Source: a virus. Taken from it: DNA of 64,000 nt. Within the stretch, counting starts at the first letter, position 1. Each line of letters starts with the position of its first letter. Below the pieces are notes generated by a model. That model saw nothing but the letters and a program-made list of their open reading frames with translations. It made no database searches and was not told where the DNA came from. The position numbers and the translations under genes are program-made. Shown one piece after another: positions 30,668 to 45,007 of the stretch. The stretch covers positions 1 through 64,000 of the IMG/VR virus record IMGVR_UViG_3300037468_000183, one strand, 5' to 3'.

Positions 30668-31306
30668 ATGATCGGTAAATGGATAGCTGGCACAGGCGGT
30701 CTGAATCTCGAAATCGTGCCTTACGAGACGCGCCCGGATGCCGCGCGTTGGCAGGGCGGGCCGGTGTATCGCGTCAAGGACATATTCTCGACGCGCAATG
30801 GCTCTTTCGAACCAACAAACGAATTTGGCAGCATCGACCAATGGGCGAAGGATGCGTACTGGTCGGGTGCCAAGTTCGACGGGGCAGGCGGCGATCACAA
30901 CTTTTTCATCCTGGCGCTGGACGAAGCGGGCCAGCCGATTCCAGGGAAGGGCCTGCTGTTCTGGCAAGGCGCAATGACCGCTGATTTCACTCCGAGCGAC
31001 CCGCGCACGGCGAAACATGACGGCTCTGAGAATATCCCGGTATTTGGCTCGTATGCGCCGGATCGCGACGAACATGGTTCGTGGAGCGGCGCGGTACTGG
31101 GAAAATCCGATGTGTTGGTGGGCGTCGGGATGCCGTGGAATCATCACGTTTCGACGTTCCTGGTGCTGCAAGCGGTTGCTGATTCCCAGCCTCCACCACG
31201 ACCGCCTGACCCTCTGCCGGATGACGACTTCCAGCAGACCGTATTGGCGCATCTCGACGCCATTTATTTGCGGCTCGATGACATGGCGAAGCACTTGGGT
31301 GCATGA
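30668..31306 (+). CDS. Hypothetical fibre-region protein with coiled-coil end
   Basis: 212 residues. Residues 1-~165 form one compact aromatic-rich domain (YRVKDIFSTRNG, NFFILALDEAGQPIPGKG, FWQGAMTADFTP). A PPPRPPDPLPDDD linker follows, then a 25-residue helix (VLAHLDAIYLRLDDMAKHL). The ATG is preceded by AAGGAGCCAAC. No family recognised. The architecture suggests a binding domain tethered through a coiled coil to another virion part. Confidence 0.6.
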   Translation: MIGKWIAGTGGLNLEIVPYETRPDAARWQGGPVYRVKDIFSTRNGSFEPTNEFGSIDQWAKDAYWSGAKFDGAGGDHNFFILALDEAGQPIPGKGLLFWQGAMTADFTPSDPRTAKHDGSENIPVFGSYAPDRDEHGSWSGAVLGKSDVLVGVGMPWNHHVSTFLVLQAVADSQPPPRPPDPLPDDDFQQTVLAHLDAIYLRLDDMAKHLGA

Positions 31307-31332
31307 AAACATGTGAGGGGCGCGCTAAAATA

Positions 31333-33708
31333 ATGACCAAACTTGCGACGGTCGTCTTAGTGGTCTTTTTGCTGGCTGGCTGTATCGCGCCGCCATCGCC
31401 GCCATACACCAGCGTGGGCAACTATCGCGCCGCGCTGCCACCGCAAATCCCCCGACAAATGCCTGCTATGCCACGTGCGCCGCAGACGGCGGTCTGGACA
31501 TACGCGCTGCCGGCGAAGCCGTGTCCCTGGTCATCGTCTGACAGCAATTGCCACTACGCGTCGCCCGCGCTGGCCGATCTTGGGCACACGGGTACTCTGG
31601 ACATTATCGTCGCGACTAATAACGGCCATGTCGTGGCAGTCGATCATGCCGGTAAGCTGCTCTGGGATGTGGATGTGGCACCCGCTTTCGGTATGCTGCC
31701 CGATACTCAGGAAATTGGCTCATCTCCGGCCGTGGGTGATATCGATGCCGATGGCTGGCTGGAGATCGCGGTAGGCGTTGGTTCGGTGTATCCGACCGTC
31801 TGCACCACGGGCGGCGTGATCGTCCTGGATCACATGGGACGCGTCAAGTCCGGCTGGCCGCAACTGGCTGACGATTGGAGCCTGCCGCTCGGCTGCCGCG
31901 ATACTGTTTTTAGCACGCCCGCGCTCGGTGATCTCGATAAAGACGGCAAGCTGGAAATCGTCGCCGGCGGCTTCGACATGAAAATCTATGCCTGGCGCTA
32001 CGATGGTACGCTCCTGCCGGGTTTCCCGCCCGATGGCGCACATGCCGCGCGCTTCCCAACTGAGCCGGAATTGCAGGGCCGTCTCAGTGATACCATCTGG
32101 TCATCGCCCGCGCTGGGCGATTTAGACCGCGACGGTTTTCTGGAAATCGTCATCGGCAGTGACGAGGGCAATCGACCACCGGGCTATAGCTGCCCCTATC
32201 GCCTGCCTCCCAATTGGCGGCCCGACTACTGCGGCGGCGCGCTCTACGTGCTGGATCGCTTTGGCCGCTTTTTGCCGGGTTTCCCGAAATATGTTCTCGA
32301 TATCATCGCGTCTTCGCCCGCGCTGGTGGATTTGGACGGCGACGACTGGCTGGACATTGTCGTGGGCACGGGGCCTTTTTATTCTGACAACTCCCCCAAC
32401 TATCCCGCCAGCGGCTTCCGCGTGTATGTCTGGGATCATCTCGGCAATGATCTTCCGGGCTGGGAGGGCGGTAAGCTCGTCGGCGGCCCTACGCCAGCGT
32501 CACCAAGCATTGGCGACCTGGACGGCGATGGCGAGCCCGAAATAGTCATCGCAACCTATGATCCAGAGCGTAAGCTGTACGCCTGGCATGTTGACGGTGC
32601 GCTATTGCAGGGCTTCCCGATGGCGCCAACCTTCAATGGCGTAACTTATGCTAGTTTCGACACGCCTGCGAATTTCGTCTTGGCGGATTACAACGGCGAC
32701 GGCAGGCAGGAAATCTTTTTCAGCACCGGCTGGCTGGTGACGGTCGTGGATGGTAACGGCAAGCAGCTTACCAGCACGGGTTATGGCAGTCCCCTACCAT
32801 CCTACATGTCCAACGGCTCGCTGATCAATAATCCCGCCATTGGTGACCTGCGCCATGATGGGCAGTTGGCATTGATCGCCACTAACAGCCAGGTGACCGT
32901 TTGGGATTTACCAGGTGCTGGCCGGGCAGCCGCCTGGCCGCTCTTTCGCAACAACGCACCACGCATGGGGAGTCTTGGCACAATCATACCTCTGCCCATC
33001 GTCGCCCATAGCGCACGTGGTCTCGTGGAACGCTTCTACCTGCATGTTTTACGGCGCGCACCGGACCAAGCGGGCATGGATACCTGGACCAATGCGTTGC
33101 TGGATCGCGCCATGAGCGGCGCTGATTTGGCACGCGCCTTTGTCCTCAGTTCTGAATTTGGCGACAGCAACACCACCAATGCTGATTTCCTAACCATCAT
33201 ATATCGCGCATTCTTCGACCGCGTGCCGGATGCTGGCGGTTACAACGTCTGGCTCAGCGCGCTCAACAACGGACTGCCGCGCGTCGAGATGCTGGACGGC
33301 TTTATCCGTTCGCGCGAATTTGCTGAGCTATGCGACAGCTACGGCATCCGCGCCAACACAACGCACCAGGACAAGCTGCGCAGTTTCGTGACGCGCCTCT
33401 ATCGCGAAGTCTTGGGACGCGCACCGGATGCCGCGGGGTTGGCGCTGTGGGCTATGGGCAACCATACGGGTGGAGAGATGGTGCGCGGTTTCGTGCTCAG
33501 CCAGGAGTTCGGCAAGCGCGCATTCAGCGATGAGCAATTCGTGACCATGCTGTATCGCGCACTCCTCAACCGCGTACCGGATAGCGGAGGCTATGACTAC
33601 TGGCTCGCCAATCTCCGCGGCGGCATGAGTCGCACGCGCGTGCTGGAAAACTTTATCGGTTCGGCGGAATTTACCGAACTATGCAAGAGCTACGGCATCG
33701 CGCCCTAA
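31333..33708 (+). CDS. Lipoprotein with FG-GAP beta-propeller and DUF4214 repeats
   Basis: 791 residues. The start at 31333 gives a textbook lipoprotein signal with lipobox LLAGC (Cys17). Residues ~75-540 carry seven propeller blades with calcium-binding motifs of the DIDADG / DLDKDG / DLDGDG type. Residues ~565-790 carry four DUF4214-like repeats (FYLHVLRRAPDQAGMDTW, with FILS-EF between). DUF4214 occurs in surface and S-layer-associated proteins. An exported lipoprotein in a phage late region is unusual. It may be a lysogenic-conversion or exclusion factor. Confidence 0.75.
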   Translation: MTKLATVVLVVFLLAGCIAPPSPPYTSVGNYRAALPPQIPRQMPAMPRAPQTAVWTYALPAKPCPWSSSDSNCHYASPALADLGHTGTLDIIVATNNGHVVAVDHAGKLLWDVDVAPAFGMLPDTQEIGSSPAVGDIDADGWLEIAVGVGSVYPTVCTTGGVIVLDHMGRVKSGWPQLADDWSLPLGCRDTVFSTPALGDLDKDGKLEIVAGGFDMKIYAWRYDGTLLPGFPPDGAHAARFPTEPELQGRLSDTIWSSPALGDLDRDGFLEIVIGSDEGNRPPGYSCPYRLPPNWRPDYCGGALYVLDRFGRFLPGFPKYVLDIIASSPALVDLDGDDWLDIVVGTGPFYSDNSPNYPASGFRVYVWDHLGNDLPGWEGGKLVGGPTPASPSIGDLDGDGEPEIVIATYDPERKLYAWHVDGALLQGFPMAPTFNGVTYASFDTPANFVLADYNGDGRQEIFFSTGWLVTVVDGNGKQLTSTGYGSPLPSYMSNGSLINNPAIGDLRHDGQLALIATNSQVTVWDLPGAGRAAAWPLFRNNAPRMGSLGTIIPLPIVAHSARGLVERFYLHVLRRAPDQAGMDTWTNALLDRAMSGADLARAFVLSSEFGDSNTTNADFLTIIYRAFFDRVPDAGGYNVWLSALNNGLPRVEMLDGFIRSREFAELCDSYGIRANTTHQDKLRSFVTRLYREVLGRAPDAAGLALWAMGNHTGGEMVRGFVLSQEFGKRAFSDEQFVTMLYRALLNRVPDSGGYDYWLANLRGGMSRTRVLENFIGSAEFTELCKSYGIAP

Positions 33709-33778
33709 TGGAAGGAGGGCCTATGCACTGAACCGAACTTGACGACGGGCAGGCTAATATCATGTTAGGGGGCAAATC

Positions 33779-33985
33779 GTGGGTACACTTCTGGAGCAAA
33801 TCGCGGCGATGGTCGCAACGTTGAACGAGGTCAAGACGTTGTGCGAGGGGATTGTCACAGCGTCAGCGGCACAGGAGACGGACTACAACGCGGCGGAGGC
33901 GGCACAACAGCAAGCCGGTGTTTCGTCGGCGGCGGTCGTGCTTCTGGCGCAACAGGTGATCGCGAAGATCGGGGCCGTCACGTAG
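33779..33985 (+). CDS. Small helical protein at end of late operon
   Basis: 68 residues from a GTG with AGGGGGCAAATC upstream. Predicted to be nearly all helix, Ala/Gln-rich (AAEAAQQQAGVSSAAVVLLAQQVI). The last rightward gene before the transcription-stop hairpin. A lysis or tail role is possible by position, but there is no clear membrane segment. Confidence 0.55.
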   Translation: MGTLLEQIAAMVATLNEVKTLCEGIVTASAAQETDYNAAEAAQQQAGVSSAAVVLLAQQVIAKIGAVT

Positions 33986-34002
33986 GACGGCATGCTTCAA
34001 GT

Positions 34003-34039
34003 AAGGACAGCTTTGACTGCCGTAGTCAAAGCTGTCCTT
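34003..34039. terminator. Perfect 16-bp hairpin between converging blocks
   Basis: Arms AAGGACAGCTTTGACT (34003-34018) and its exact complement (34024-34039) around a 5-nt loop. It lies 17 bp after the last rightward gene and 13 bp after the end of the leftward gene 34053-34517. No T-tract follows on either strand, so it may act as a bidirectional terminator with help or as an mRNA 3-prime end barrier. Confidence 0.7.
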
Positions 34040-34052
34040 GCGAGCGACGAGT

Positions 34053-34517
34053 TTACTTGCTTCTGTAGTAGGCTCCGAACCACTCTAGCCAATGTGCAAA
34101 TGCCTGTTGCTGAGCTGTGCTAGGATAGGTACGTTGAGGCAGTTGAAACTTCAGAAACCAGGCAACTGCAAGTGCAATCGTAGCTGTCCATGCGTTGGCG
34201 ATTCCAACGTCTGCCGCCCAATCGCAACAGAAGTCGAAGTCAGTTGCGCAGACGTCGCTGAGGTCGAACGATTTCCGGAGCAATCGCAAGCTGCAGGTTC
34301 CGCCACCAGAGATGCTACCACCTGTGCCAACGGCAATCAGGCACTCCTCTTTTGACTCCCCGTCACCCACCATGACCTTGTATCGCGTTCCGTCACCGGG
34401 TTGTACGACCAACAACTTCGCGTTGCCAGAGAAACAAACTGTTTGCTGTGTCATTAGTTCAGACTCCCGAAGCGGATTGCCAGGCATCAGGATCGAGTAC
34501 GTGACGAAGTAGGCCAT
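34053..34517 (-). CDS. Hypothetical protein with one hydrophobic segment
   Basis: 154 residues, ATG preceded by CCAGGAGGAACA. The first half is beta-rich with several Cys (DVCATDFDFCCDW). A hydrophobic stretch ATIALAVAWFL lies near residue 118, followed by an aromatic helix HWLEWFGAYYRSK. No family recognised. It is the last gene of the leftward block, and a parS site lies just upstream of its ribosome site. Lower GC than neighbours. Confidence 0.6.
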   Translation of the reverse strand: MAYFVTYSILMPGNPLRESELMTQQTVCFSGNAKLLVVQPGDGTRYKVMVGDGESKEECLIAVGTGGSISGGGTCSLRLLRKSFDLSDVCATDFDFCCDWAADVGIANAWTATIALAVAWFLKFQLPQRTYPSTAQQQAFAHWLEWFGAYYRSK

Positions 34518-34534
34518 TGTTCCTCCTGGGAAAA

Positions 34535-34550
34535 TGTTTCACGTGAAACA
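34535..34550. promoter_or_regulatory. Perfect parS centromere site (copy 1)
   Basis: TGTTTCACGTGAAACA, identical to the bacterial chromosomal parS consensus bound by ParB, extended to an 18-bp palindrome by flanking A and T. It lies in the 43-bp gap between two leftward genes. A second identical 18-bp site is 2.1 kb away. Confidence 0.85.
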
Positions 34551-34560
34551 TGCGCGGCGC

Positions 34561-35400
34561 TCAGTCCTCCGTCGCGTCGAGCGGCATCTGCACGGCGCGC
34601 TCCGACTCGTGCGGGAATAGCGGCGCTTGCAGTTGCGCCCGTCCGACACGCTCCCGCGTCAGTGCGATGTACTCAGCGGCAATGTCGATGCCGATAGCCC
34701 GGCGTCCCAACGTAACCGCCATTTTCAGCGTAGTGCCCGATCCGCACATAGGATCAAGCACCACGTCGCCGGGATTGCTCCAGGAGAGGATGTGATCGCG
34801 CGCCAGGGCTTCGGGGAAGATCGCAGGGTGATTTGCTGCGTCAGGATCAGAATAGCCGTTCGTTCCGTGTGATAGGATGTCCCATACGTTATCCTTCACG
34901 CGCATTCCGCCCCCGATTCTGACATTAAGAACTTCTTGGGTGCCTCTTATTTTTGATCCTACGACAAAACCACCATGCCCAGTCGATTTTACTTTTATCA
35001 GATTGGCGGTGGTAGGAGACTCCTTTGACATGATAAACATATACTCAAAAACTGATGCGTAACGGACAGTTTCAGGGAACTGGGGAGCACTCCGGCGATA
35101 GATCATCGTATCGTGAAGGTTGAAGCCCAGGCCCATGAACCCAAGCGCCTGCCGGAAGCTCGTGCCCGTCTCGCTGCCGTTGACCGTCGCATCGGCAACG
35201 ACCCACACGACCACGCCGCCCGGCTTGGTGACGCGCCACAGTTGCGCGGCGATGGCCTCGAAGTCGAAGGTGTAACCGCGGTATTCGCGAAGTCCGTCAT
35301 ACGGAGGAGAAGTCACTGTTAGATCAATCGAGCCGTCTGGAATGTGCGCCGCCATGACAGCAGCGCACTCTCCGGTATACAGCGTCACGTCATTGCTCAT
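34561..35400 (-). CDS. DNA methyltransferase (N4/N6 amino-type)
   Basis: 279 residues from the ATG at 35400, preceded by GGGAAGCAACT; an upstream in-frame extension looks like antisense of the neighbouring gene. Motif IV is TSPPYDGL (residue ~33), and motif I is LDPMCGSGTTLKMA near residue 228, again order IV-I. The central part 34910-35065, corresponding to the target-recognition region, is strikingly AT-rich. A modification enzyme without an adjacent endonuclease, probably protecting phage DNA. Confidence 0.88.
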   Translation of the reverse strand: MSNDVTLYTGECAAVMAAHIPDGSIDLTVTSPPYDGLREYRGYTFDFEAIAAQLWRVTKPGGVVVWVVADATVNGSETGTSFRQALGFMGLGFNLHDTMIYRRSAPQFPETVRYASVFEYMFIMSKESPTTANLIKVKSTGHGGFVVGSKIRGTQEVLNVRIGGGMRVKDNVWDILSHGTNGYSDPDAANHPAIFPEALARDHILSWSNPGDVVLDPMCGSGTTLKMAVTLGRRAIGIDIAAEYIALTRERVGRAQLQAPLFPHESERAVQMPLDATED

Positions 35401-35617
35401 AGTTGCTTCCCACCGGCTCGCAGGTCGCCACGTCCACGAGCAGATCATCGCCGCCATTCTCCGGGCGGATGTACAGCCGGTGTCCGTCCGCGTGGCCGCA
35501 GATGACGACGGCGGGATGACCTTCGTGCAGGATGCGGTCGCCGGGTAGGGGACGTGGCTTGCGCTCATGGCAAATATGGCCTCTTGGGAAGCTCTGACCA
35601 ATAGTCGCAGTCGGCAA
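35390..35617 (-). CDS. Small hypothetical protein, intact copy of a duplicated module
   Basis: 75 residues, probably from a TTG at 35617 (weak AAGG upstream), overlapping the next gene by 11 bp and the previous by 53 bp. The core LPGDRILHEGHPAVVICGHA is repeated almost identically in the start-less fragment at 36208-36375. A His/Cys cluster (CHERKP, HEGH, CGHADGH) may bind metal. No family recognised. Confidence 0.5.
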   Translation of the reverse strand: MPTATIGQSFPRGHICHERKPRPLPGDRILHEGHPAVVICGHADGHRLYIRPENGGDDLLVDVATCEPVGSNYEQ

Positions 35618-36218
35618 GCCTTACGGGGCTGAAATCCTCCGGGTAGATCAGCACCATCTGGCGCGCCGGTGAATACACGCCGGGCCATACGACGCCGTTG
35701 TGGACTACGAGAATCGTGCCCGCCTGCTTGGGAGCTTCAACGGTGAGATTCCATTCGACCTTTACGATATTGCCGCTGTCCTGCTGATCCTCGATGCGTT
35801 CAAAAAGCATGATGTTCCCCCCATCTGCCATGATTCCGTCAATGTCGTCGCGAAACTGATGGATGGTTTCGATGAGTCGCTGCGCTGCTGAGCCAATCCA
35901 GCGATCATGCTCAGCGTCGTATACCGTCAAACCACGCTCGGCCAGGGCATCCAACAAGGTCGCCCGCAAGACTATAAATTCTTCGTCGCTCATTTTTAGC
36001 AGTCCTCCTACCTGTATTACATCATTCGGTCGATCACTTGGATTGCTCGGCCAGCACCAGCGGCGCGCTGCGAGAGCGTCCAACTCATCTCTGAGCCGCT
36101 GCCTTTCTACCTGCAAATTGCGGATGCACATGCTCCACAAGTGTGTCACCGGCACTATCTCGCCGGTATCCGAGTTCGTGGTTTCATCTAACATCTCATT
36201 GCAGTATTCACATCTCAT
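35565..36218 (-). CDS. Hypothetical protein with N-terminal CxxC motif
   Basis: 217 residues from the ATG at 36218. It starts MRCEYCNEML, half of a zinc knuckle with a later Cys (MCIRN). The middle is helical (FIVLRATLLDALAERGL), and the C-terminal third is beta-rich with VYSPARQMVLIYPEDFSPV. The start overlaps the stop of the fragment upstream. No family recognised. Confidence 0.6.
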   Translation of the reverse strand: MRCEYCNEMLDETTNSDTGEIVPVTHLWSMCIRNLQVERQRLRDELDALAARRWCWPSNPSDRPNDVIQVGGLLKMSDEEFIVLRATLLDALAERGLTVYDAEHDRWIGSAAQRLIETIHQFRDDIDGIMADGGNIMLFERIEDQQDSGNIVKVEWNLTVEAPKQAGTILVVHNGVVWPGVYSPARQMVLIYPEDFSPVRLADCDYWSELPKRPYLP

Positions 36219-36375
36219 TGTCGCATTCCTCCAGCAGTTTCAGCAGTTGCCCACGGCGCACCTGTTTGTCGATGCTCAGCCGGAGGCCGTCCGCATGGCC
36301 GCAGATGACGACGGCAGGATGGCCTTCGTGCAGGATGCGGTCGCCGGGCAGGCGGAGACGTGTATGGTTGCGTCG
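36208..36375 (-). pseudogene. Start-less duplicate of the 35390-35617 gene
   Basis: An open frame of 55 codons without any usable start codon after a TGA at 36376-36378. It encodes RLPGDRILHEGHPAVVICGH and a distinct helical tail. A 62-bp stretch (36287-36348) matches 35484-35545 with three differences, so the duplication is recent. Its stop overlaps the next start (ATGAGATGTGA). It could be the -1 frame continuation of the 36276-36560 gene or a decaying copy. Confidence 0.55.
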
Positions 36376-36560
36376 TCATGTCTCAGGTTGATGTGCATTT
36401 TCCAACGCTGATTACCGCTTGGGTATGCGACCTTGACATTGGAGCCGTCAACCTCGATTACGGTTCCGGCCTTGTCTGTCCAATCGTTGACGATGGCCGA
36501 CAGGTCAAACACGTCATCACCGACCTTGAAACCATGATCTATTGGGTAGACAAATAACAT
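36276..36560 (-). CDS. Small beta-barrel-like protein, possibly frameshifted
   Basis: 94 residues nominally, ATG at 36560 with GAGGAGAGCAAC upstream. Residues 1-~65 read as a small SH3-like domain (KVGDDVFDLSAIVNDWTDKAG, GSNVKVAYPSG). The final ~28 residues are in a frame antisense-like to a conserved module, and the -1 frame there holds the conserved residues of the duplicated gene. So the natural product may end near residue 66 or continue into 36208-36375 by frameshift. Confidence 0.5.
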   Translation of the reverse strand: MLFVYPIDHGFKVGDDVFDLSAIVNDWTDKAGTVIEVDGSNVKVAYPSGNQRWKMHINLRHDDATIHVSACPATASCTKAILPSSSAAMRTASG

Positions 36561-37075
36561 GTTGCTCTCCTCGCTTCCTCTATGATGCGCTCGCACTGCG
36601 CGATACGCTCGGTATGATCAAGACTCAGGCATGGCCGATAGTATGCCTTGCGCGCCTTGCGTGGTCGCGGCGCGGGCAATGTTTCACGTGAAACATGCGG
36701 CGCGTCCGTGACACGCTCGCCGGGGGCCAGGATCACGACCGCGGAGATGGGCGCGTTATGGCAGTCGCCGGCGATGTGGATGCCGTGGCAGGAGGGACAA
36801 GGCGTGACATAGGACAATGGCCCAGGATCAGGAAGATCGAACTTGCGCCTTACCATCCTGTGAGTTTCCCAACTCACTTTAGACCATTCTCCGTGCGCCA
36901 GGGCATAGAGAACATTGTGCGATACGCCCTTGTCTTCTGCCAAAGCGCGCCATGATCGCGAATGCTTATAAGCGACCTGGACGGCCATTCGCGTGAGGTC
37001 TAACTCGGACATGACAAAGTCTGTTTCTGGAAAGAAACAAGGACTGGCGGTATCGTGCAGGGCATCCTGTGACAT
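36539..37075 (-). CDS. HTH-like DNA-binding protein with zinc ribbon
   Basis: 178 residues from the ATG at 37075 (GGAAAG upstream); an internal ATG at 37012 lacks a ribosome site. Residues ~30-75 form a helix-turn-helix (SRSWRALAEDKGVSHNVLYALA). Residues ~90-110 contain CPSCHGIHIAGDC, a zinc ribbon. The C-terminus is basic and Arg-rich, ending in a helix. Within the coding sequence, the residues HVSRET are encoded by a perfect parS site. A regulator role is inferred. Confidence 0.65.
   Translation of the reverse strand: MSQDALHDTASPCFFPETDFVMSELDLTRMAVQVAYKHSRSWRALAEDKGVSHNVLYALAHGEWSKVSWETHRMVRRKFDLPDPGPLSYVTPCPSCHGIHIAGDCHNAPISAVVILAPGERVTDAPHVSRETLPAPRPRKARKAYYRPCLSLDHTERIAQCERIIEEARRATCYLSTQ
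36680..36695. promoter_or_regulatory. Perfect parS centromere site (copy 2)
   Basis: A second exact TGTTTCACGTGAAACA, again extended to 18 bp (ATG...CAT) and followed by GCG as at copy 1. Unlike copy 1 it lies inside a gene, encoding HVSRET of the HTH/zinc-ribbon protein. Confidence 0.85.
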
Positions 37076-37079
37076 AGTT

Positions 37080-37817
37080 TTACTTTCCGGCGTTCCTGGA
37101 GTGACCGCCTCCGTATACCCAAACATGCCACTCCTTGAGCGGCACAGGAAGGAGCGCAACTTCCTCAAGCGTCATGATGGGAATAGCATTGGTGGCGTAC
37201 TTCCACTTATCCCATATCTCGATCTCCGCGTTATGCCGTAAGGTTTCGGCGTAGTTTGTCGCCCTGGTCGCAGCGGCCTTGTCGGCGCGTGACTGTGCTT
37301 CCTCTGGGGCGAGAGTCTTCGGTTTGTCAATCAAGTTGCGTCCGTTGCGCAGCAAGTCCTGGCGCGAATTGTAGCCGGCGTCCTCGACTATGTTGTGGCA
37401 CTTGCGGCAAAGCAGAGCGAGATTGTCCTCGTGATCCAAGCCACCATCGGCGCGCTTGATGACGTGATGCGGAGTCAGCATGTATTCGGTTCCGCATATC
37501 TCGCACTTTCCTTCGGCACGTCGGCGCACCTTTGCCTCAACACCACCGGGTAACAGCATTGTGGTTTTCATGTGCCTCTTCTCCTGTTCTGTTTTTGGCG
37601 GCATCATCTGACCGGCTATGAATTGCGTCATCTCGTTGACGGTTGCTGTTCGCTTGCGTTTCTCGTTGCGCAATGCGGCGATACTGCAAAGCAAGTTACC
37701 TGCTAGACTATCGAAGGATGCTAAATCGTGATCGTCAAAATCGTCAGGGGTTGCATGGCGCAACTTGTCAGCAGCGGAACGGAGTGCGGAAAACACGCAT
37801 GATGAGTTATCTTCCAC
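37080..37817 (-). CDS. HNH endonuclease
   Basis: 245 residues. I place the start at GTG 37817, with GAGGGACAAA upstream, just after the leader terminator; an alternative ATG at 37571 (AGGAGAAGAGGCAC) would give a 163-residue form. The HNH core is CEICGTEYMLTPHHVIKR, then GGLDHEDNLALLCRKCHN, with two CxxC zinc pairs. The N-terminal ~80 residues are helical, and the C-terminal ~85 are helical and charged. It may be a homing-type or packaging-associated nuclease. Expression appears controlled by the leader at 37832-37942. Confidence 0.82.
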   Translation of the reverse strand: MEDNSSCVFSALRSAADKLRHATPDDFDDHDLASFDSLAGNLLCSIAALRNEKRKRTATVNEMTQFIAGQMMPPKTEQEKRHMKTTMLLPGGVEAKVRRRAEGKCEICGTEYMLTPHHVIKRADGGLDHEDNLALLCRKCHNIVEDAGYNSRQDLLRNGRNLIDKPKTLAPEEAQSRADKAAATRATNYAETLRHNAEIEIWDKWKYATNAIPIMTLEEVALLPVPLKEWHVWVYGGGHSRNAGK

Positions 37818-37831
37818 TTTGTCCCTCGGAT

Positions 37832-37942
37832 AAACAAACGGGCCGCTCGGAGCGTTTCTTGTCGAGGGAAACGTGAGCGGCCCGCGGGAGTCCATCTCTG
37901 GACTATCCACCTATGTGATGCTCCCTACCGTTTCCCTCGACA
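37832..37942 (-). promoter_or_regulatory. Leader RNA with mutually exclusive stems (attenuator)
   Basis: On the minus strand the transcript should start near 37941. Stem A pairs 37942-37929 with 37873-37860 (TGTCGAGGGAAACG and its exact complement). Inside it lies AGTCCA/TGGACT. Stem B pairs 37884-37875 with 37848-37839 (CGGGCCGCTC and complement) and is followed by TTTGTTTA, i.e. an intrinsic terminator. The 5-prime arm of B lies inside loop A and the 3-prime arm of A inside loop B, so the two interleave. The HNH ribosome site comes right after B. Confidence 0.65.
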
Positions 37943-37947
37943 GATAC

Positions 37948-37976
37948 ATTCTACCCTACATCTCCCGGAATGTCAA
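37948..37976 (-). promoter_or_regulatory. Sigma-70-type promoter for the HNH transcript
   Basis: Minus strand TTGACA (37976-37971), 17-nt spacer, TAGAAT (37953-37948). The predicted start lies at the first base of leader stem A. Confidence 0.7.
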
Positions 37977-38009
37977 CCGGGCCGCGCGGCGCAACGCTCG
38001 CGGTCGCGC

Positions 38010-38459
38010 TCAATGCTGCCTGCCAAACACAAGCGGCAGGTACAGCCGCATGACGGGTACCGCGTGCGTCGTGATTGGCGCGGCACCCATCACTCGATCC
38101 GGCACTGTATCCGGGCCGGTGTCCCATCGCACGTGCTCGCCCTCCTGGACGCCCTGTCACACGATTGACACGAGGTGCGCGCCCGATATGGCGATGGTGA
38201 TATCGAGCGTGTCACTTCCCTGCCACGTTATGTCATCGCCAACCACATTGACGACCATGCCGGGCCGCGTCCAGATGCGCACCGTGTCGCCGGACGTGCC
38301 CCTGAGCGTGTACATGAATGCCGTGCTCTGACCATCGGGCAGCACGTATGGGCCGCAGAAATATACCAGAGTGGCGCCTGAGCTTGGGCCCGCGTGGGCC
38401 GGCACGGATAGCGCCAACAGCATGACGATGCCAATGACAAGACCAAACTTCTGTTTCAT
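38010..38459 (-). pseudogene. Secreted YLPLV-tail protein interrupted by an in-frame TGA
   Basis: ATG at 38459 has AAGGAGGAATAAC upstream. A classic signal peptide (GLVIGIVMLLALSVPAHA) is followed by a small beta domain. TGA at 38157-38159 ends translation after 100 residues. The same frame then continues for 48 more codons, with QEGEHVRWDTGPDTVP and a final MRLYLPLVFGRQH before TGA at 38010. The conserved export-type tail beyond the stop means it was, or by readthrough still is, a 149-residue protein. The short form may also be functional. Confidence 0.6.
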
Positions 38460-38460
38460 G

Positions 38461-38772
38461 TTATTCCTCCTTGAAGTCAACTTCACACGGCGCGCCGCGC
38501 GCAAAGGCACATGCCTCATCGAGCGAGTCGAAGCGACACAACGCGTAAAACGCGGCATCCCGACTCGACGGCATAGGCTCATGTATCCAGTGCCTATTCC
38601 GGCCGAGCACGTAATGATCGCCGCTGCGAATGGCCCAACGGTCGGGCGCGCCGTCGCCGTAAATGCAACGGTCGACTCGAATGCCGAGAATGTCGTGGAT
38701 GGCTTTGCCGTCGTTGTCGGGTCTGACGATCCACACCGAACAAATATCATAGCCGCCTATCCTGTCATCCAT
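38461..38772 (-). CDS. Hypothetical protein
   Basis: 103 residues from the ATG at 38772, preceded by AATGAGGAGCGAT. It ends one base from the start of the next gene. Sequence features are ICSVWIVRPDNDGKAIHDILG, several Cys and a C-terminal acidic end (CEVDFKEE). No family recognised. Confidence 0.55.
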   Translation of the reverse strand: MDDRIGGYDICSVWIVRPDNDGKAIHDILGIRVDRCIYGDGAPDRWAIRSGDHYVLGRNRHWIHEPMPSSRDAAFYALCRFDSLDEACAFARGAPCEVDFKEE

Positions 38773-38780
38773 ATCGCTCC

Positions 38781-39188
38781 TCATTCCTCGTTGCGCCTGC
38801 CGCGCATCACGTCCGCCGCGGCTTTCTTGACGCCCTCGGCCATCACGTCGAAAGCGTATTCGTCGGCCCACGTCAGCGCCTCGGCACTGTTCGCGAGCGT
38901 GACGGCCACGTCCGGCAATTCGGCCCTGAGACCAGCGTATGACCGGATGCGTCCGTAGCTCTGCCAGCGCGCCAGATCATCGAATTCGGCGCGGGCCGCG
39001 TCGTGCAGATTGGCGATCAGTTCGTCGGTTTGGCCGCTGAAGCCCTCGACATGGCGCGCCGCCTCGCAGGCTTCCTCAAGCAGCTTGCAGACTTGGCGCG
39101 CTGTCAGTTTCTCAGCAGTCAGTCCCTCTGTATAGCCGCGCGCGACCAGCGATTCAAAGATAGCTTCCTGTGCCTCATGCGTTTGCAT
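38781..39188 (-). CDS. MazG-like nucleotide pyrophosphohydrolase domain protein
   Basis: 135 residues, ATG with AGGAGGACAAGCGCG upstream. The pair of acidic motifs EEACE (near residue 38, EExxE) and ELPDVAVTLANSAE (near residue 90, ExxD) in an all-helical protein is the MazG/all-alpha NTP-PPase signature. Such phage enzymes hydrolyse (d)NTPs or alarmone-type nucleotides. The match is by motif only, so confidence is moderate. Confidence 0.6.
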   Translation of the reverse strand: MQTHEAQEAIFESLVARGYTEGLTAEKLTARQVCKLLEEACEAARHVEGFSGQTDELIANLHDAARAEFDDLARWQSYGRIRSYAGLRAELPDVAVTLANSAEALTWADEYAFDVMAEGVKKAAADVMRGRRNEE

Positions 39189-39984
39189 CGCGCTTGTCCT
39201 CCTTGTCCTTGATCCAATACTCCCAAACGTCTCCGCGCTTCCTGCGGGCCAGCTTGCCTTTCTTCTCCATCCTCGTCAGACAGTTGGACGCCAGCGAGCC
39301 GGGAAGATCGAGCACGGCGTTGACTTCGCGGAACGTCATGGGTGTCTTTGCCGCGGTCAGCAACGACAACACCTTTTCAATGTGCTTCTGCTTGCGGCCG
39401 ACCGGGTTGGCCGGCACAGGCGAAGGCACGGCGTTACCCGTTGCCAGCCAGGTAGTGCGCGCCTTGCAGCGTTCGGGGCGGGCGATGCCAATGGCGACGA
39501 TGCGACCCTGATTGCGCAGCAGGCGCCACGCGCCCAGCAGCAACGACTTCTCGCTGTCCACGCCAACGCAACACTCGAAGAACATCGCTGGACGATCCAG
39601 GAGGAGCAGGTTTGCCAACAGCACATCAGCAATCGCTGCAATCTCCACGCGCCTTTGCTCGGCCACGGCTTGCGCGTCTGCCTCGTCAACCGCTGCACGG
39701 CAGACAACCGCCTCCCGCGCGATGTTGGCGCGCTGGCATTCTGCGTAGTACGGACAGGCAGGCCGTTTGGTCTTTGGGTCGTCACACTGGCCCATGCCGA
39801 CGATGCCCGCCTTTGGGTCTGCATGTGACGGCAACGCTTCCCGCCTCACAGCGTCAATCTCGGCCAGGGACAACACCCAGGCATTCGCGAATCCGGGCGC
39901 GCCGCTTGGGATGCGACGCACCGCTGACAGGCCCAAACCGGCGTTGGGCAAAGTGTCAGAGACGAAGGTTCTGCGAGATAGCAT
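39175..39984 (-). CDS. Protein with Cys cluster and C-terminal winged helix
   Basis: 269 residues. The middle part has CPYYAECQRANIAREAVVC (a possible metal site) and a hydrophobic helix VLLANLLLL. Residues ~205-265 form a MarR/winged-helix domain (KHIEKVLSLLTAAKTPMTFR, then a basic wing ARRKRGDVWEYW). It is probably a DNA-binding regulator. A 14-bp imperfect hairpin lies 45 bp upstream of its start. Confidence 0.6.
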   Translation of the reverse strand: MLSRRTFVSDTLPNAGLGLSAVRRIPSGAPGFANAWVLSLAEIDAVRREALPSHADPKAGIVGMGQCDDPKTKRPACPYYAECQRANIAREAVVCRAAVDEADAQAVAEQRRVEIAAIADVLLANLLLLDRPAMFFECCVGVDSEKSLLLGAWRLLRNQGRIVAIGIARPERCKARTTWLATGNAVPSPVPANPVGRKQKHIEKVLSLLTAAKTPMTFREVNAVLDLPGSLASNCLTRMEKKGKLARRKRGDVWEYWIKDKEDKRDANA

Positions 39985-40028
39985 AGTACTCCTTTCTGTG
40001 GTGAGTCGTCAGGCCGTCCGGCGACAAG

Positions 40029-40066
40029 AGCGTCTGTCTGCGCTACTGCAAACGCGGACAGACGCT
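40029..40066. terminator. 14-bp hairpin in intergenic gap
   Basis: AGCGTCTGTCTGCG (40029-40042) pairs with CGCGGACAGACGCT (40053-40066) with one G-T type mismatch. It lies between the leftward genes 40090-40296 and 39175-39984, in the 105-bp gap. No T-run follows, so attenuation or mRNA protection are both possible. Confidence 0.5.
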
Positions 40067-40089
40067 TGCGGGGCGGCTTGGCGTGGTGG

Positions 40090-40296
40090 TTATGCGTGCT
40101 TCTGACGCAGCCACCACGTAAAATCAGCATACGTGAGCGGCTTGGGACATATTTCCGAGTCGTTCGGCCTGGCCTGATTATCTCCAGGCCACATCTCTCG
40201 GCGTACACCATATCCAAGCAGGCAACGCACGCCGATACTGTTTGTATATTCCAGCGCGCGGCAGTTTTTGCACGTCTGTTTCTTGCGTGCGGTCAT
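40090..40296 (-). CDS. Small zinc-finger-like protein
   Basis: 68 residues, ATG at 40296 after TGCGGAGGACGC. The motif CKNCRALEY with later Cys residues (VRCLLG, EICPKP) suggests a four-cysteine zinc site. Short phage proteins like this often bind nucleic acid or inhibit host enzymes; function unknown. Confidence 0.6.
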   Translation of the reverse strand: MTARKKQTCKNCRALEYTNSIGVRCLLGYGVRREMWPGDNQARPNDSEICPKPLTYADFTWWLRQKHA

Positions 40297-40327
40297 GCGT
40301 CCTCCGCATTGCACCTGATAAGTGTGG

Positions 40328-40585
40328 CTATACGTGCCTCAGCCAATCGGCTTCTGCGCTCAGATATTCCGCATGGCGTTGCGCAACAATGTCACACTCG
40401 GCGTGATACGCGCCTTCCAGTGCTCGGATGGTCGCATATAACTCGGCGTCAAACGGCTTGCTGCTGTCGGCAAATGAGTCGAGCACCGCATAGAGCGTGG
40501 CGCGCGCTTCGAGCATCTTGCCCACGGCAGCATACTCCGCGTGTTGTGCGTCGAGTCGCACCAGGTCTCTGTCGCGTGTTATCAT
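40328..40585 (-). CDS. Small helical protein
   Basis: 85 residues, ATG preceded by GGAGGAGGACGT. Predicted to be one helical hairpin with His and Asp residues (YHAECDIVAQRHAEYLSAEA). The start overlaps the upstream stop by 4 bp. No family recognised. Confidence 0.6.
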   Translation of the reverse strand: MITRDRDLVRLDAQHAEYAAVGKMLEARATLYAVLDSFADSSKPFDAELYATIRALEGAYHAECDIVAQRHAEYLSAEADWLRHV

Positions 40586-40902
40586 ACGTCCTCCTCCGGG
40601 TCGGGCGCGTCGTCGGCGTCGAGCGTCGGGCAGGTCTCGCGCAGCACGGCGTAGCTGTCCGTCTGCACGTAGGGCGGATTGCTGACAATCGCCAGGATGC
40701 TGTCCGGCGTGTGGTAGATGTCTGACGGCGGCGGCTTGCCACCGGGATAGCGCGCTTCGGCGGCCGCTTCGACAACCTTGAGATCATCTGACGGCATCTG
40801 GTTGCCCTTCGAAATATAGAGCCACCACAGCGCCCCTTCGACAAAGGCGCGCCGCAGATCGTCGGCTGGCAGCCGTCCCTCGATGTGATCGACCCAACTC
40901 AT
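40582..40902 (-). CDS. Hypothetical protein
   Basis: 106 residues. N-terminal helix (RRAFVEGALWWLYISKG), then Pro-rich segments and an acidic end (DADDAPDPEEDV). Overlaps both neighbours by 4 bp. The VEGALWW-YI pattern recurs in phage proteins of unknown function. Confidence 0.6.
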   Translation of the reverse strand: MSWVDHIEGRLPADDLRRAFVEGALWWLYISKGNQMPSDDLKVVEAAAEARYPGGKPPPSDIYHTPDSILAIVSNPPYVQTDSYAVLRETCPTLDADDAPDPEEDV

Positions 40903-41189
40903 GCGTCCTCCCTCGCTGCGTTCTCCGCAGCATTCGGCGCGAGCGCCGTCCGAATCACGTCACGCGCTTGCATCACGTTGACCGGCAGATATACGTGGTA
41001 TTGGCTGCTCTGCTCCAGCAATCGCTGCACGTGCTCTAGCGCCGTGCGCAGGCGCGCGTTCTCGGCTTGCGCCTCATTTCGGACCAGTCGATACTGCTTC
41101 GTCAGGACAAGCACGTATTGCAGGCGCTCGCCGGTCGATTGCAGATAGTCGCGCAGGCGGTCGTTCTCGGCTTGCAGATCGTCTGTCAT
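40899..41189 (-). CDS. Coiled-coil protein
   Basis: 96 residues from the ATG at 41189 (GGAGGCCCGCAC upstream). Two heptad-rich helices (LQAENDRLRDYLQSTGERLQ and RNEAQAENARLRTALEHVQ) suggest a coiled-coil dimer. It ends in a short Ala-rich tail. Overlaps the methyltransferase gene by 4 bp. Confidence 0.6.
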   Translation of the reverse strand: MTDDLQAENDRLRDYLQSTGERLQYVLVLTKQYRLVRNEAQAENARLRTALEHVQRLLEQSSQYHVYLPVNVMQARDVIRTALAPNAAENAAREDA

Positions 41190-43072
41190 GTGCGGGCCTC
41201 CGGTTTGCGAACAAACCATACATCCTCGTTCAGAATCGCCGCGTGCGGATTCTTCTCATTGGCGAGTCGGCGGAAAAAACTCACCTTGTCGCATTTGAGC
41301 GACTTGTCCTCACCGAGCAGCCCCAATTGCGCGCCGTGATCGGTCGTCTTCCAGGCCGTGACGTGGAGCAGCGGATCGAAGCCAACTGATTCACACAGCG
41401 CCAACCACTGCTCCCCGAAGGGGACGCGCTGCTTGTTGCGCACGAAGTCGCCAGTGATCCAGGCCGCCACTGCGCCAGGCTTGAGCACGGCGTAGGTCTG
41501 GGCGACGATCTCGCGCGCGGCAGTCCAGAACGTGTCTGCCCGCAATGCGCCGACTTGCCCATCTGTGTCGCCGTAATTCGACTGAAACATAGCAGCGCAT
41601 CCAATGTTGGTAGGTGAAACGAATACATCCGGGCGCTTTGTCGTAAACTCACCTTTGGCGTATCGTTCGGCCTTACGTTGGCGGGCCGAATCATCATTGA
41701 TCCCTGTATTGACGCTCGCCTCATACGGCGGACTGCTCACCGTCGCATCGAAGCCGTTGCCCGCTGGCATGGCGCCGAGTTGGCCGGGGGTGGCGCCGTA
41801 GCGTGCGCCCAGGGCCTTGCGCTGCTCCCAGCCGGCCGTCCCGCGAACGAAGTTGCCGTCAGCGTCGCGCAGTCCGCTCGCGCCTTCGTCTCCGCCTGGC
41901 CCGCCGTCGATGCGCGTCTCGGAGTAGGGTGGACTCGAAACACACGCCGAATACCCCTGCATCGTCAACGCCTGCGAGTGCTGGCCGGGCTTGTTGCCGG
42001 TGAGCTTGTCCGTGTCGATGCCGTTGCCGCCGTGCACGGTGTTGGCGCTGTAGGGGGGCGAACCAACTGCCGCCGAGTAGTCGCCGGGTGGCATCTGCTC
42101 CAGTTGCCCCGGTGTTGCGCCATAGCCAGGACGACGCGCTGTGCCTTCGGCGGCCCGGCGCGCGTCTTCAGCGGCATCCAAGCGCACGCTCTGTCCATCG
42201 TGACCAGTCGTGCCCGCATACGGCGGACTCGCAATCGCGCCATCGTAGCGCAGCGCCGCGTCGAAGTCGCCGGGTGGCAGCGCGCCCAGTTGGCCGGGCG
42301 AGGTGCCGTAGGACGCCACTTGCATTGTTCTTCCGGGGCGCGCTTCGGCATTGAATGCTGCATCTGTGCTTTGTAAGCTCCCCTGAAACGGCGGCGACGA
42401 CACGACCGCATCCGCTTCCGCCACGATCTCCGCCAGCCGGCGCGAGTCGCCTTGCAGCACGCGCGCCGTGCCATAGCCGGGGAAGTGCGGCGCGTAGCGG
42501 GCGCGCCATGTCTCCAGGTTGCCGGGCTGATATTCGGCGCAAGGCACGGCGCGCTTGGCTTCCAACTGGCGCAGATGTGCCTGAGCTACAGTCAATTCGC
42601 TGGCGTAGTTCTCGCGCTCAGCATCCGTGATAGGGCGGGGTGGTTCCCAAGTGGCATCGGTTTCGTCATACCTGCCGGACGATTGGATGCCCGTTTTTAG
42701 GATGGCCTCCAGGTCGCGCACGTGTTGGCGCTGGCGGTCAAGCTCGGCTTGGTTCTTGGCGCACGCCGGGCACAGATGCAAAGTGTTGCAGGTGTAGCCG
42801 CGGCACAAGTCAACGAACTTCGGCTCCAATTCCATGCCCGTCCAGTGCAGGCCATACAACGCGGCGTGGAAGGCGCAGCCGCCGATGCCGCCGAACGGAT
42901 CAACAACTTTGTCACCAGGGGCCAGCCAACCTTCGGCCAGCATGTGGCGATAGATGCGCTCGGCCAGGCCGAAAGATATCTTTGCCGGATGCGCGTAGGC
43001 TTCAGCGGCCAACGGTGCGCTCTGCCACGAACCATCATAGCAGCCGAACCACTCAGTTTGCATTGGGGCCAT
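41186..43072 (-). CDS. DNA methyltransferase with five tandem SPPY/SPPF segments
   Basis: 628 residues, ATG after GAGGAAGATC. Motif I is KVVDPFGGIGG near residue 53, followed by MELEPKFVDLCRGY and a Cys-containing helical insert. Motif IV (SPPY or SPPF) then appears five times between residues ~230 and ~455, each followed by a segment ending YGATPGQLG-MP-G. A single methyltransferase C-terminal half follows (YAVLKPGAVAAWITGDF). Only one catalytic loop is needed, so four are duplicates. It should methylate DNA at adenine or cytosine amino groups. No endonuclease is adjacent. Confidence 0.82.
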   Translation of the reverse strand: MAPMQTEWFGCYDGSWQSAPLAAEAYAHPAKISFGLAERIYRHMLAEGWLAPGDKVVDPFGGIGGCAFHAALYGLHWTGMELEPKFVDLCRGYTCNTLHLCPACAKNQAELDRQRQHVRDLEAILKTGIQSSGRYDETDATWEPPRPITDAERENYASELTVAQAHLRQLEAKRAVPCAEYQPGNLETWRARYAPHFPGYGTARVLQGDSRRLAEIVAEADAVVSSPPFQGSLQSTDAAFNAEARPGRTMQVASYGTSPGQLGALPPGDFDAALRYDGAIASPPYAGTTGHDGQSVRLDAAEDARRAAEGTARRPGYGATPGQLEQMPPGDYSAAVGSPPYSANTVHGGNGIDTDKLTGNKPGQHSQALTMQGYSACVSSPPYSETRIDGGPGGDEGASGLRDADGNFVRGTAGWEQRKALGARYGATPGQLGAMPAGNGFDATVSSPPYEASVNTGINDDSARQRKAERYAKGEFTTKRPDVFVSPTNIGCAAMFQSNYGDTDGQVGALRADTFWTAAREIVAQTYAVLKPGAVAAWITGDFVRNKQRVPFGEQWLALCESVGFDPLLHVTAWKTTDHGAQLGLLGEDKSLKCDKVSFFRRLANEKNPHAAILNEDVWFVRKPEART

Positions 43073-43087
43073 GATCTTCCTCTCTCG

Positions 43088-43441
43088 TCAAGACTCTGAT
43101 AGATACGTCTCAATCTCAGCGGCGGCGTCCAGCCATTGCCAACACACCGCCACGCGATACCCCTGCACTCGCAGGGCGTCGATCCACCATTGCTGCGCCG
43201 CGCTGATGCGACCGCCTTTGGCCTTCATCTCGATGAACAGGCCATGATAGCCGTGACGGGCGCAAGGCAAAAACAAATCCGGCACTCCAGATTTTTCGCC
43301 TTCGGCCTTGAGTCGGGTCGCCGTGGCAATGTGTCGCCAGCCGCCGTTGGGTGTGTGGTGCAGCAGCGCCAACTCCGGCAGGCGCTGCTCGTTGTACGCC
43401 GTCCACTCGAATAGAGCGATCTGCTCTGAGGATTCGCTCAC
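43088..43441 (-). CDS. VRR-NUC domain nuclease
   Basis: 117 residues, the stand-alone phage length. The motif order is typical: HHTPNGGWRHIATATRLKAEG, GVPDLFLP, GLFIEMKAKGG and QGYRVAVCWQW, with the PD-(D/E)XK residues in PDLF and EMK. These enzymes cut branched or damaged DNA, and some resolve Holliday junctions. Overlaps the upstream gene by 4 bp. Confidence 0.88.
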   Translation of the reverse strand: MSESSEQIALFEWTAYNEQRLPELALLHHTPNGGWRHIATATRLKAEGEKSGVPDLFLPCARHGYHGLFIEMKAKGGRISAAQQWWIDALRVQGYRVAVCWQWLDAAAEIETYLSES

Positions 43442-43662
43442 TCTGAAGGTTCAGTTGCGGAGATGTCACCAGCAATGAGCGGCAATTGCCGCTCATTGCT
43501 GGTGACAATCAACTCCACCTCGTCCTTGTTGCTTGACAACCACGACAACCTGCCGCGCTGATCAAGCACATTCTGTGTCAGCGTCATCTCAAACGTGATG
43601 GTCGCGTTTCCCGTCACCATGTCGATGCGGGCGGATTTGATGATTGACTTTGGAAATATCAT
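43438..43662 (-). CDS. Small protein containing a palindromic coding segment
   Basis: 74 residues, ATG with AAGGAGCCAAC upstream. Beta-rich (ARIDMVTGNATITFEMTL, EVELIVTS). The residues VTSNERQLPLIAGD are encoded by a perfect 42-bp palindrome at 43465-43506. No family recognised. Confidence 0.6.
   Translation of the reverse strand: MIFPKSIIKSARIDMVTGNATITFEMTLTQNVLDQRGRLSWLSSNKDEVELIVTSNERQLPLIAGDISATEPSE
43465..43506. repeat. Perfect 42-bp palindrome inside a gene
   Basis: GTCACCAGCAATGAGCGGCA plus A, followed by its exact complement with no spacer; the centre is at 43485/43486. As RNA it would form a 19-20 bp hairpin, and as DNA a strong cruciform. Confidence 0.85.
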
Positions 43663-43678
43663 GTTGGCTCCTTGTTGC

Positions 43679-43810
43679 TCACGTTTTTGTCGTCTTCCAG
43701 AATCTACGCTTGCCGCACAGCCAGGTCATGTGCCTGCCGCTGTGGGCCGCGCTCCGCTCACAGATGCGAAATTTTCCCGCGACGGTTGTCGGAGATCCGC
43801 ACTTGCGCAT
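43679..43810 (-). CDS. 43-residue Cys-containing basic protein
   Basis: Starts ATG at 43810 with TAGGAGGACGT, one of the best ribosome sites in the block. The product MRKCGSPTTVAGKFRICERS continues basic with a third Cys and ends KRRFWKTTKT. The next gene starts 16 bp after its stop. Possibly a small metal- or nucleic-acid-binding peptide. Confidence 0.55.
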   Translation of the reverse strand: MRKCGSPTTVAGKFRICERSAAHSGRHMTWLCGKRRFWKTTKT

Positions 43811-43818
43811 ACGTCCTC

Positions 43819-43932
43819 CTATCGTTTCCCAGATATCTTCTCTCGAATCCACACGAGAATGGTCGCGACAGTCACTATCACCAGAAACATGATGACGACA
43901 TAGCCGAGCATCCGGCCGTCATAGTAGCTCAT
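43819..43932 (-). CDS. 37-residue single-span membrane protein
   Basis: ATG at 43932 with GAGGTGCTGGC upstream. A Tyr/Asp/Arg N-terminus, the hydrophobic stretch YVVIMFLVIVTVATILVW, and a basic end (REKISGKR) predict an N-out single-span protein. It overlaps the upstream stop by 4 bp. Confidence 0.6.
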   Translation of the reverse strand: MSYYDGRMLGYVVIMFLVIVTVATILVWIREKISGKR

Positions 43933-44240
43933 GCCAGCACCTCGATGATGCGCGCCAGGGGCACGGTTTCGAATTGCATATGTCTCGCTATGGCCCACGA
44001 GCTTTGCATATGGCAGGTGGTGCGATTGACCTTGAGTATCACACCCTCCCATTCGTGGCGCGCCCATCCACCGATCTTGCCTTCGGCGCGCCGCATGTCC
44101 CAGAAGCGCACGCGCTGCCCGACCTGATACGCGCCTTCGTGCTCGCTCACTTTGCCTCCTGTGTTGCAAAAGTCGCAACCGTAAAGGTGATTGCCGCCAC
44201 CGCAGCCGTGCGGGCCGGGGTAGTGGCGGCAGATGTTCAT
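43929..44240 (-). CDS. Cys/His-rich small protein
   Basis: 103 residues from the ATG at 44240, overlapping the upstream stop (ATGA). The N-terminus CRHYPGPHGCGGGNHLYGCD resembles a zinc-binding knuckle. The rest is a small beta domain (QVGQRVRFWDM, EWEGVILKVN), like an SH3 fold. Function unknown. Confidence 0.6.
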   Translation of the reverse strand: MNICRHYPGPHGCGGGNHLYGCDFCNTGGKVSEHEGAYQVGQRVRFWDMRRAEGKIGGWARHEWEGVILKVNRTTCHMQSSWAIARHMQFETVPLARIIEVLA

Positions 44241-45007
44241 ACGCCACAGATGCCGCTGCACTCGTCATTCCACAGCGACAGTTGCCCGCGCTCCTCGGCA
44301 TTCGAGAAGTCCACCAGCGCCAACGGTTGCTGCGATGGATGCAGAAACAAGTCATAAGGCGGGCGCACCTTGCGAATGGCATCGTCAACCTCGACGGCCT
44401 TGTGCCAGTCGCCGTTACCGGACGCCTTCATGTCGTGCCAGGCGCGGGTATCGTGAAACGGACAGAACACACAAGCGGACTTGGGGGGCGTCGGTAGATT
44501 GTGGCGCGCCAACCAAGCGGCGCAATCGTTGCGTGTCATGCGCTTTTCGATCAGCGGCCAGCGGTGGGTGATGTACTTCACGTCGCTGTCTCGCATACGC
44601 TGCACCTCATCAAGGCTGATGCCGATCCATTGCTCGACTGGGCGGCCTTCCCGGTTGGCTTGCAGCCAGCGGCGGATGGGTGCGATCTTCCAGCATTGGG
44701 TACATTGTCGGCGGAGTTGTCCGCCTCTATCGGTTGGCGTTGCCGTGAATGACGGGATGAAGATTTCCCCCCCCACCCGGTCGGTTACGATCCGGGGCGA
44801 CTTGTCTTGCACCGTCACCACCCGCACGCCATGTTCTTCCAGCCACGGCGTCCACTGCCGCGCGAACGCATACGTCCCGCTCATCTCGTGCGTCGTGTCG
44901 GCGTGGATCGCGACATCCGGCATTTCGATCTCGCCCAGGGCCGCCATTGCCGCCAACGTGAAGGACTGCCAGCCCCAACCGAGCGAGAGTGTCACAAGTG
45001 GTTTCAT
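44237..45007 (-). CDS. Phosphoadenosine phosphosulfate reductase-like protein
   Basis: 256 residues. The PP-loop is present in altered form (SLGWGWQS in place of SGGxDS, residues 8-15). ADTTHEMSGTYAFARQW follows, then two Cys pairs (CTQCWKIAPI and CVFCPFHD) that could hold an iron-sulfur cluster, plus a conserved KR-basic segment. Phage members of this family are common and have been linked to DNA or nucleotide sulfur chemistry; the substrate here is unknown. ATG preceded by GGGAGATGAC. Confidence 0.82.
   Translation of the reverse strand: MKPLVTLSLGWGWQSFTLAAMAALGEIEMPDVAIHADTTHEMSGTYAFARQWTPWLEEHGVRVVTVQDKSPRIVTDRVGGEIFIPSFTATPTDRGGQLRRQCTQCWKIAPIRRWLQANREGRPVEQWIGISLDEVQRMRDSDVKYITHRWPLIEKRMTRNDCAAWLARHNLPTPPKSACVFCPFHDTRAWHDMKASGNGDWHKAVEVDDAIRKVRPPYDLFLHPSQQPLALVDFSNAEERGQLSLWNDECSGICGV

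Follow-up and report, generated by a model that had tools for sequence, protein, structure and literature searches.

A predicted phage leader RNA with two interlocking stems upstream of exchangeable DNA-acting genes

The leader of the HNH gene

The window analysed here, a stretch of 64,000 nucleotides of a virus (IMG/VR record IMGVR_UViG_3300037468_000183), carries on its minus strand an HNH endonuclease-type gene that is preceded by a promoter and a structured leader. The features are listed below in the direction of transcription; copy 2 is a second leader found elsewhere in the same record.

37977..37992, minus strand: 16-nt block with the palindrome GCCGCGCGGC, abutting the -35 hexamer on its upstream side; 16/16 identical to copy 2
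37948..37976, minus strand: promoter TTGACA-17-TAGAAT, 11/12 consensus bases; hexamers and spacing the same in copy 2
37929..37942, minus strand: 5' arm of stem S1 (a), TGTCGAGGGAAACG, at the predicted RNA start; from complementarity and covariation
37889..37904, minus strand: hairpin AGTCCA-GAGA-TGGACT with a GNRA-type loop, separating a from b; from the sequence
37875..37885, minus strand: 5' arm of stem S2 (b); from complementarity and covariation
37874..37874, minus strand: 1-nt junction from b to a'; 1 nt in copy 2 too
37860..37873, minus strand: 3' arm of S1 (a'), with a 7-nt complementarity to the Shine-Dalgarno region as well; from complementarity
37838..37848, minus strand: 3' arm of S2 (b'), the predicted terminator arm; from complementarity
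37830..37838, minus strand: T-rich run TTTGTTTAT directly behind b', the predicted termination region; T score 3.68
37822..37827, minus strand: Shine-Dalgarno-like GAGGGA; from the sequence
37080..37817, minus strand: HNH endonuclease-type gene, GTG at 37817, 245 aa; Pfam HNH 4.5e-10, PHROG HNH families

The promoter consists of TTGACA (37976-37971), a 17-nt spacer and TAGAAT (37953-37948), and is the sole site above 9/12 consensus bases within 30000-46000, where sites of at least 9/12 occur at chance level (5 vs 5.6 expected). The block abutting it at 37977..37992 is a possible operator or UP region. Arm a starts at the sixth base downstream of the -10 hexamer, which is compatible with an RNA start at the first base of this arm, and we infer the start to be there.

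Stem S1 (37942-37929 with 37873-37860) comprises 14 bp that are 100% complementary, with 55 nt separating its arms, and stem S2 (37884-37875 with 37848-37839) comprises 10 perfect base pairs, or 11 counting an outer G-U pair. The stems interleave, the order on the minus strand being a, hairpin, b, a', b', T-rich run, Shine-Dalgarno sequence and GTG, and share no bases: b stops 1 nt before a', and b' starts 11 nt past a'. The promoter, the perfect 14-bp stem behind it, the interleaved 10-bp stem with its U-rich run and the gene start that follows at once (GAGGGA at 37827-37822, then GTG 37817) had all been proposed in the initial annotation, and each was borne out.

The program-made list of open reading frames starts the HNH frame inside the leader, at GTG 37910; GTG 37817, with GAGGGA just ahead, is the credible start. 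By sequence, both the promoter and the intrinsic-terminator-like signal lie ahead of the start codon. A leader peptide starting at GTG 37910 was considered and rejected: its frame is open into the HNH gene, no Shine-Dalgarno sequence is visible before it, and the corresponding frame of copy 2, read by eye, has an upstream stop.

Chance expectation of the layout

The layout was described by a descriptor (interleaved arms in this order plus a T tail), which was applied to the window and, as a control, to 100 dinucleotide shuffles of it. The shuffles gave 44 matches with stems of at least 8 and at least 7 bp and none with at least 10 and at least 8 bp, whereas the real window gave a single match, with 14 and 11 bp. 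A plain inverted repeat is less special, even with 14 bp or more: the window has four such sites vs 0.07 matches per shuffle. Perfect inverted repeats other than S1 are located at 34003-34039 (16 bp), 43464-43507 (20 bp) and 57191-57253 (14 bp); the first of them is located between two converging genes, where it possibly terminates transcription from both sides.

A second copy with different letters and the same pairing

The window belongs to a virus record of 104,080 bases, and a search of this record for the leader identified a second place at 101,711-101,767. Copy 2 thus lies outside the window (approximately 101.6-101.77 kb). Since contig pieces at 87-104 kb are collinear with those at 17-40 kb (69-95% nucleotide identity), the two leaders occupy matching, syntenic places of two related phages, and the record, with its two related phage halves, represents either tandem prophages or a chimeric assembly. 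It also carries two different large-terminase genes, one at 518-2065 of the window and one starting from 62795.

Copy 2 has the promoter hexamers, the spacing and the leader plan of copy 1 with different letters: its arms are TGTCGAAGGCTGC (a), GCAGCCTTCGACA (a'), ACAGCCCGCCG (b) and CGGCGGGCTGT (b'), and its counterpart of the hairpin at 37889..37904 is TCCC-GCAA-GGGA, in which 4/4 counted pairs are kept and one is changed on both sides. This hairpin and S2 are followed by a T-rich run, which is weak (score 2.5-3.1), an SD-like GGAGGAA and ATG. The gene behind it differs from that behind copy 1 and encodes a ParB-like/DNA-methyltransferase protein (Pfam N6_N4_Mtase 1.1e-9; ParB-like PHROG 5.5e-6). 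The element is therefore not tied to the nuclease gene; the candidate L163 described below also precedes a DNA methyltransferase.

Base pairs were counted on a MAFFT alignment of the two copies, made by sequence alone, for 28 pairs (14 in S1, four in the hairpin and 10 in S2). Wherever a cell has a letter on either side, the two letters pair (55/55 cells); all 28 pairs are kept and none is broken in these two sequences, which come from one contig. Eleven of the 28 pairs are changed on both sides (four in S1, one in the hairpin and six in S2) and none on one side. No shuffle out of 500 was as good, and slid versions of the alignment had at most one double change. In a register set by hand, with one gap within S1 and an 11-bp S2, there are five and four double changes, one single change and no breaks. 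The covariation proposed as a check of the leader is thus present.

The two copies are identical in 16/16 positions upstream of the -35 hexamer, in 28/36 promoter columns and in 53/95 positions of the leader. The letters of the leader thus drift while the pairing persists. As the second copy, different in sequence, keeps the same folding, this leader and its interlocking stems very probably constitute a genuine element of gene control. An ordinary promoter followed by hairpins without any regulatory role is very unlikely: the four sites above show that the window has long inverted repeats elsewhere too, but both stems show compensatory changes, and copy 2 keeps the order of the arms and the junction. 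Because of the compensatory pair changes, plain hairpins without regulation are strongly disfavoured.

Search for further members

The firm members are two, both on one contig. When the collected DNA was searched with the descriptor and with the covariance model, they ranked first or close to first, and nearly all other places scored far lower. Relatives of the methyltransferase were found at 28 loci of viral contigs, and the upstream regions of 26 were examined. One of these, L163, has the arm order of the two copies on another viral contig, upstream of a related methyltransferase: it has a promoter-like stretch and, 5 nt past a weak -10 of the sequence GATACT, TGTCG; S1 has 7 bp, the long S2 abuts a' (a junction of 0 nt), and seven T and, soon after, ATG follow. 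Its descriptor score of 73.8 exceeds those of all 20 shuffles (at most 44.0), and in the ranking over 1.33 Mb it shares the top with the two copies (72.8 and 71.0), ahead of a repeat-rich place (66.1). Only 14 nt, without a hairpin, lie between a and b. The predicted energies are -9.3 kcal/mol for S1 vs -37.6 kcal/mol for S2; as the terminator outweighs S1, the default state of L163 would be the opposite one. L163 was missed by the covariance model R1 and by a third, later variant of the descriptor, in the latter case, we think, because its stem extends into the T tract and no T tail remains behind it. We regard it as a candidate, either distant kin or convergence, and it is omitted from the pair counts, since a three-sequence MAFFT alignment misplaces it.

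In the other 25 of the 26 examined relatives, including L155 (68% identity), the element was not counted as present. Two of the loci scored above their 20 shuffles, L156 (48.6 vs a maximum of 39.9) and L174 (50.6 vs 42.4), and were rejected since their arms are far from the plan, with a 5-nt junction and a 28-nt L3 in the one and arms more than 90 nt apart that reach into the gene start in the other. Long perfect hairpins of other types were seen by eye upstream of related methyltransferases at L168 (approximately 17 bp) and L173 (approximately 15 bp); leader or operator structures seem to be frequent at these genes.

The methyltransferase was found at four loci of GTDB contigs. One of these, L183 from a cyanobacterial MAG, has a weak descriptor score of 56.9 (among up to 400 background windows 0.7% scored as high, and one had 69.1), and was left uncounted, as its -10 abuts arm a. 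A profile search gave 42 loci, seven of which were read upstream; the scan of all of L187-L229 returned the L163 contig alone (as L187). The covariance model R1, run on 198 sources and 47 whole records, retrieved only its two source copies, all other matches being weak (E of at least 0.08); of its three record matches the one that was read, L230, has no such element. The element was found in none of 61 loci of the viral collection with the promoter and TGTCGA pattern (by inspection and descriptor), in none of five with TGTCGA...TCGACA after TAGAATG, and in none of 80 loci with PAPS-reductase relatives. Relatives of the HNH protein were sought in viral contigs and phage records and none was found; for the neighbour protein A1 none was confirmed.

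Folding and proposed mechanism

In nested folding S1 is favoured over S2 in both copies (-49.7 vs -44.7 kcal/mol in copy 1 and -41.9 vs -36.2 kcal/mol in copy 2), and removal of arm a makes b:b' the minimum free energy structure. The initial annotation had held that only one of the stems can form. This is not supported: the stems use separate bases and are joined by 1 nt in both copies, which makes an H-type pseudoknot containing S1 and S2 together sterically possible. By an A-form estimate L3 must bridge approximately 39 A over 13-14 bp, and its 11 and 9 nt in the two copies provide approximately 60-72 A. Of the proposed logic of an attenuator or riboswitch, then, the conserved unit of promoter, leader and predicted terminator before the start codon is supported, and the mutual exclusion as stated is not.

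The reading that we prefer, with a probability of roughly 0.58, is that of a cis-acting 5' leader which would control transcription into the adjoining gene by premature termination. The RNA would begin at a, and because a' is made earlier than b', S1 should form first. If the leader works as a switch, a:a' would block b:b', read-through would be the default, and the terminator would form once some factor or event captures arm a or rearranges the hairpin-bearing stretch that separates a from b. If it works as a pseudoknot, S1 would pre-organise the terminator, and the leader would be a near-constitutive brake on the gene and yield a compact RNA of approximately 105 nt. Both versions are attenuation in a wide sense. 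A phage or host RNA-binding protein seems a likelier trigger than a small ligand, since the stretch that separates the stems is short and conserved only in part.

The same region would be the aptamer if the leader were a metabolite riboswitch, the binding site lying in the hairpin region from a to b. Common to both copies are the stretch ACATAGG..GAT and the GNRA-type hairpin, but the region separating S1 from S2 is identical in 22/37 positions, little above the leader as a whole, the gap in L163 is short and lacks the hairpin, and no Rfam family matches. We consider a riboswitch unlikely.

Control of translation is likewise improbable. It would be exerted through a', which could pair with the Shine-Dalgarno region, while arm a mimics this region, so that formation of S1 would free it. 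The predicted pairing of a' with the Shine-Dalgarno region amounts to -13.5 kcal/mol (7 bp) in copy 1, -8.3 kcal/mol in copy 2 and -6.5 kcal/mol (6 bp) in L163, with shuffle p values of 0.010, 0.168 and 0.010, respectively. However, copy 2 is not significant, the pattern was noticed post hoc, and matches of this kind arise readily with an a' rich in pyrimidines.

Relation to known RNA classes and systems

Rfam searches at gathering score gave no matches in the window and none in L008, and at lax thresholds the matches in both leaders all fell far short of the gathering scores, in agreement with the earlier statement that no known riboswitch class was recognised. IscB proteins, in which RuvC is split by HNH, are encoded behind an omega RNA. 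The HNH protein aligns through its residues 58-168 with positions 150-255 of the IscB model NF040563, scoring 41 bits vs a cut-off of 175; this match covers the HNH part only, the window has no Rfam match, and an IscB/omega RNA assignment was rejected.

In attenuators with intrinsic terminators, such as those of the trp/pyr type and the antisense-controlled ones of plasmids, a leader with alternative stems ends in a terminator just before the gene. The leader described here resembles them in its promoter, its possibly alternative stems and the predicted terminator adjoining the gene. It differs in that the antiterminator and terminator arms of classical attenuators overlap, whereas the arms here do not; its 5' arm pairs with the terminator loop, no leader peptide with a Shine-Dalgarno sequence was seen, and no ligand, protein or antisense RNA is known for it. 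The phage immunity leaders of P4 (CI RNA) and P1 (c4) likewise contain segments complementary to one another and stop transcription early, as is predicted here; for the present leader no processed RNA acting in trans is known, and the gene context differs. With the H-type pseudoknot riboswitches SAM-II and preQ1-I it shares the a-b-a'-b' order and the very short junction, but its stems are much longer, there is no Rfam match, and a hairpin is located inside loop 1.

The closest layout is that of the phage-borne RCd22/abiF locus, which is reported to consist of a promoter, an RNA of approximately 130 nt, a terminator and the gene, with no promoter between, and with most transcription ending at the terminator (PMC12373285). 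As in RCd22-AbiF and type III toxin-antitoxin systems, a promoter, a structured RNA of approximately 100-130 nt, a terminator and a gene follow one another on the same transcript (PMC12373285). The leader is nevertheless not a member, its RNA motif and the encoded proteins being different ones: Rfam detects no abiF RNA in it, and the genes encode an HNH protein and a methyltransferase.

In another reading, with the same layout, the locus would encode a stable phage non-coding RNA of approximately 105-110 nt that adopts an H-type pseudoknot fold (S1 of 14/13 bp, S2 of 11 bp, 1-nt junction) and is ended by its own terminator. The downstream gene would be fed by read-through, and the RNA would act in trans or upon the protein encoded downstream. 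The non-overlapping arms and the 1-nt junction in both copies are in line with such an RNA, an L3 of 9-11 nt suffices for the estimated 39 A, S1 at the extreme 5' end would protect it, and a precedent for the layout is reported for RCd22/abiF (PMC12373285). It is a live alternative, though a less probable one: the downstream proteins are neither AbiF nor ToxN, the abiF motif is absent by Rfam, and a near-identical RNA plan stands before different proteins, which is not what one would expect if RNA and protein formed a dedicated pair.

Taken from sequence comparison, the leader is a covariation-supported phage RNA and most likely an attenuator of exchangeable DNA-acting genes. More tentatively, it may represent a new class of phage leader RNA, with interleaved or pseudoknotted stems from +1 and a terminator, that forms a portable cassette for exchangeable DNA-acting cargo (an HNH nuclease, a methyltransferase) and senses a phage or host factor; a limited literature search returned nothing on such a leader. 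The timing of phage gene expression is usually ascribed to promoters, repressors and antitermination proteins. A leader RNA gating swapped-in nuclease and methylase genes, if real, would be a further, RNA-level layer of control. The two natural versions, different in sequence and equal in shape, make swap and compensatory-mutation tests straightforward.

Loci sharing the promoter pattern

Most of the 61 loci with the promoter pattern look like marine phages with a short hairpin of their own at the RNA start. Among L009-L069, many TTGACA-N17-TAGAAT promoters are followed by AACTTTGTCGAAGTT or ACCTTTGTCGAGGTT, forming a short hairpin at the likely RNA start, and these start hairpins occur in several sequence families. 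Twenty one pattern loci were given to Rfam, and nine of them (L010, L017, L022, L024, L032, L045, L050, L059 and L061, all on marine-looking phage contigs) have a 37-nt abiF RNA (RF03085) that is followed after 4-7 nt by a tRNA in the same orientation. The abiF RNA is also named in a paper on the cyanophage S-CREM1 (PMC9964418). Near phage tRNAs it is possibly an antitoxin-like RNA that is carried along.
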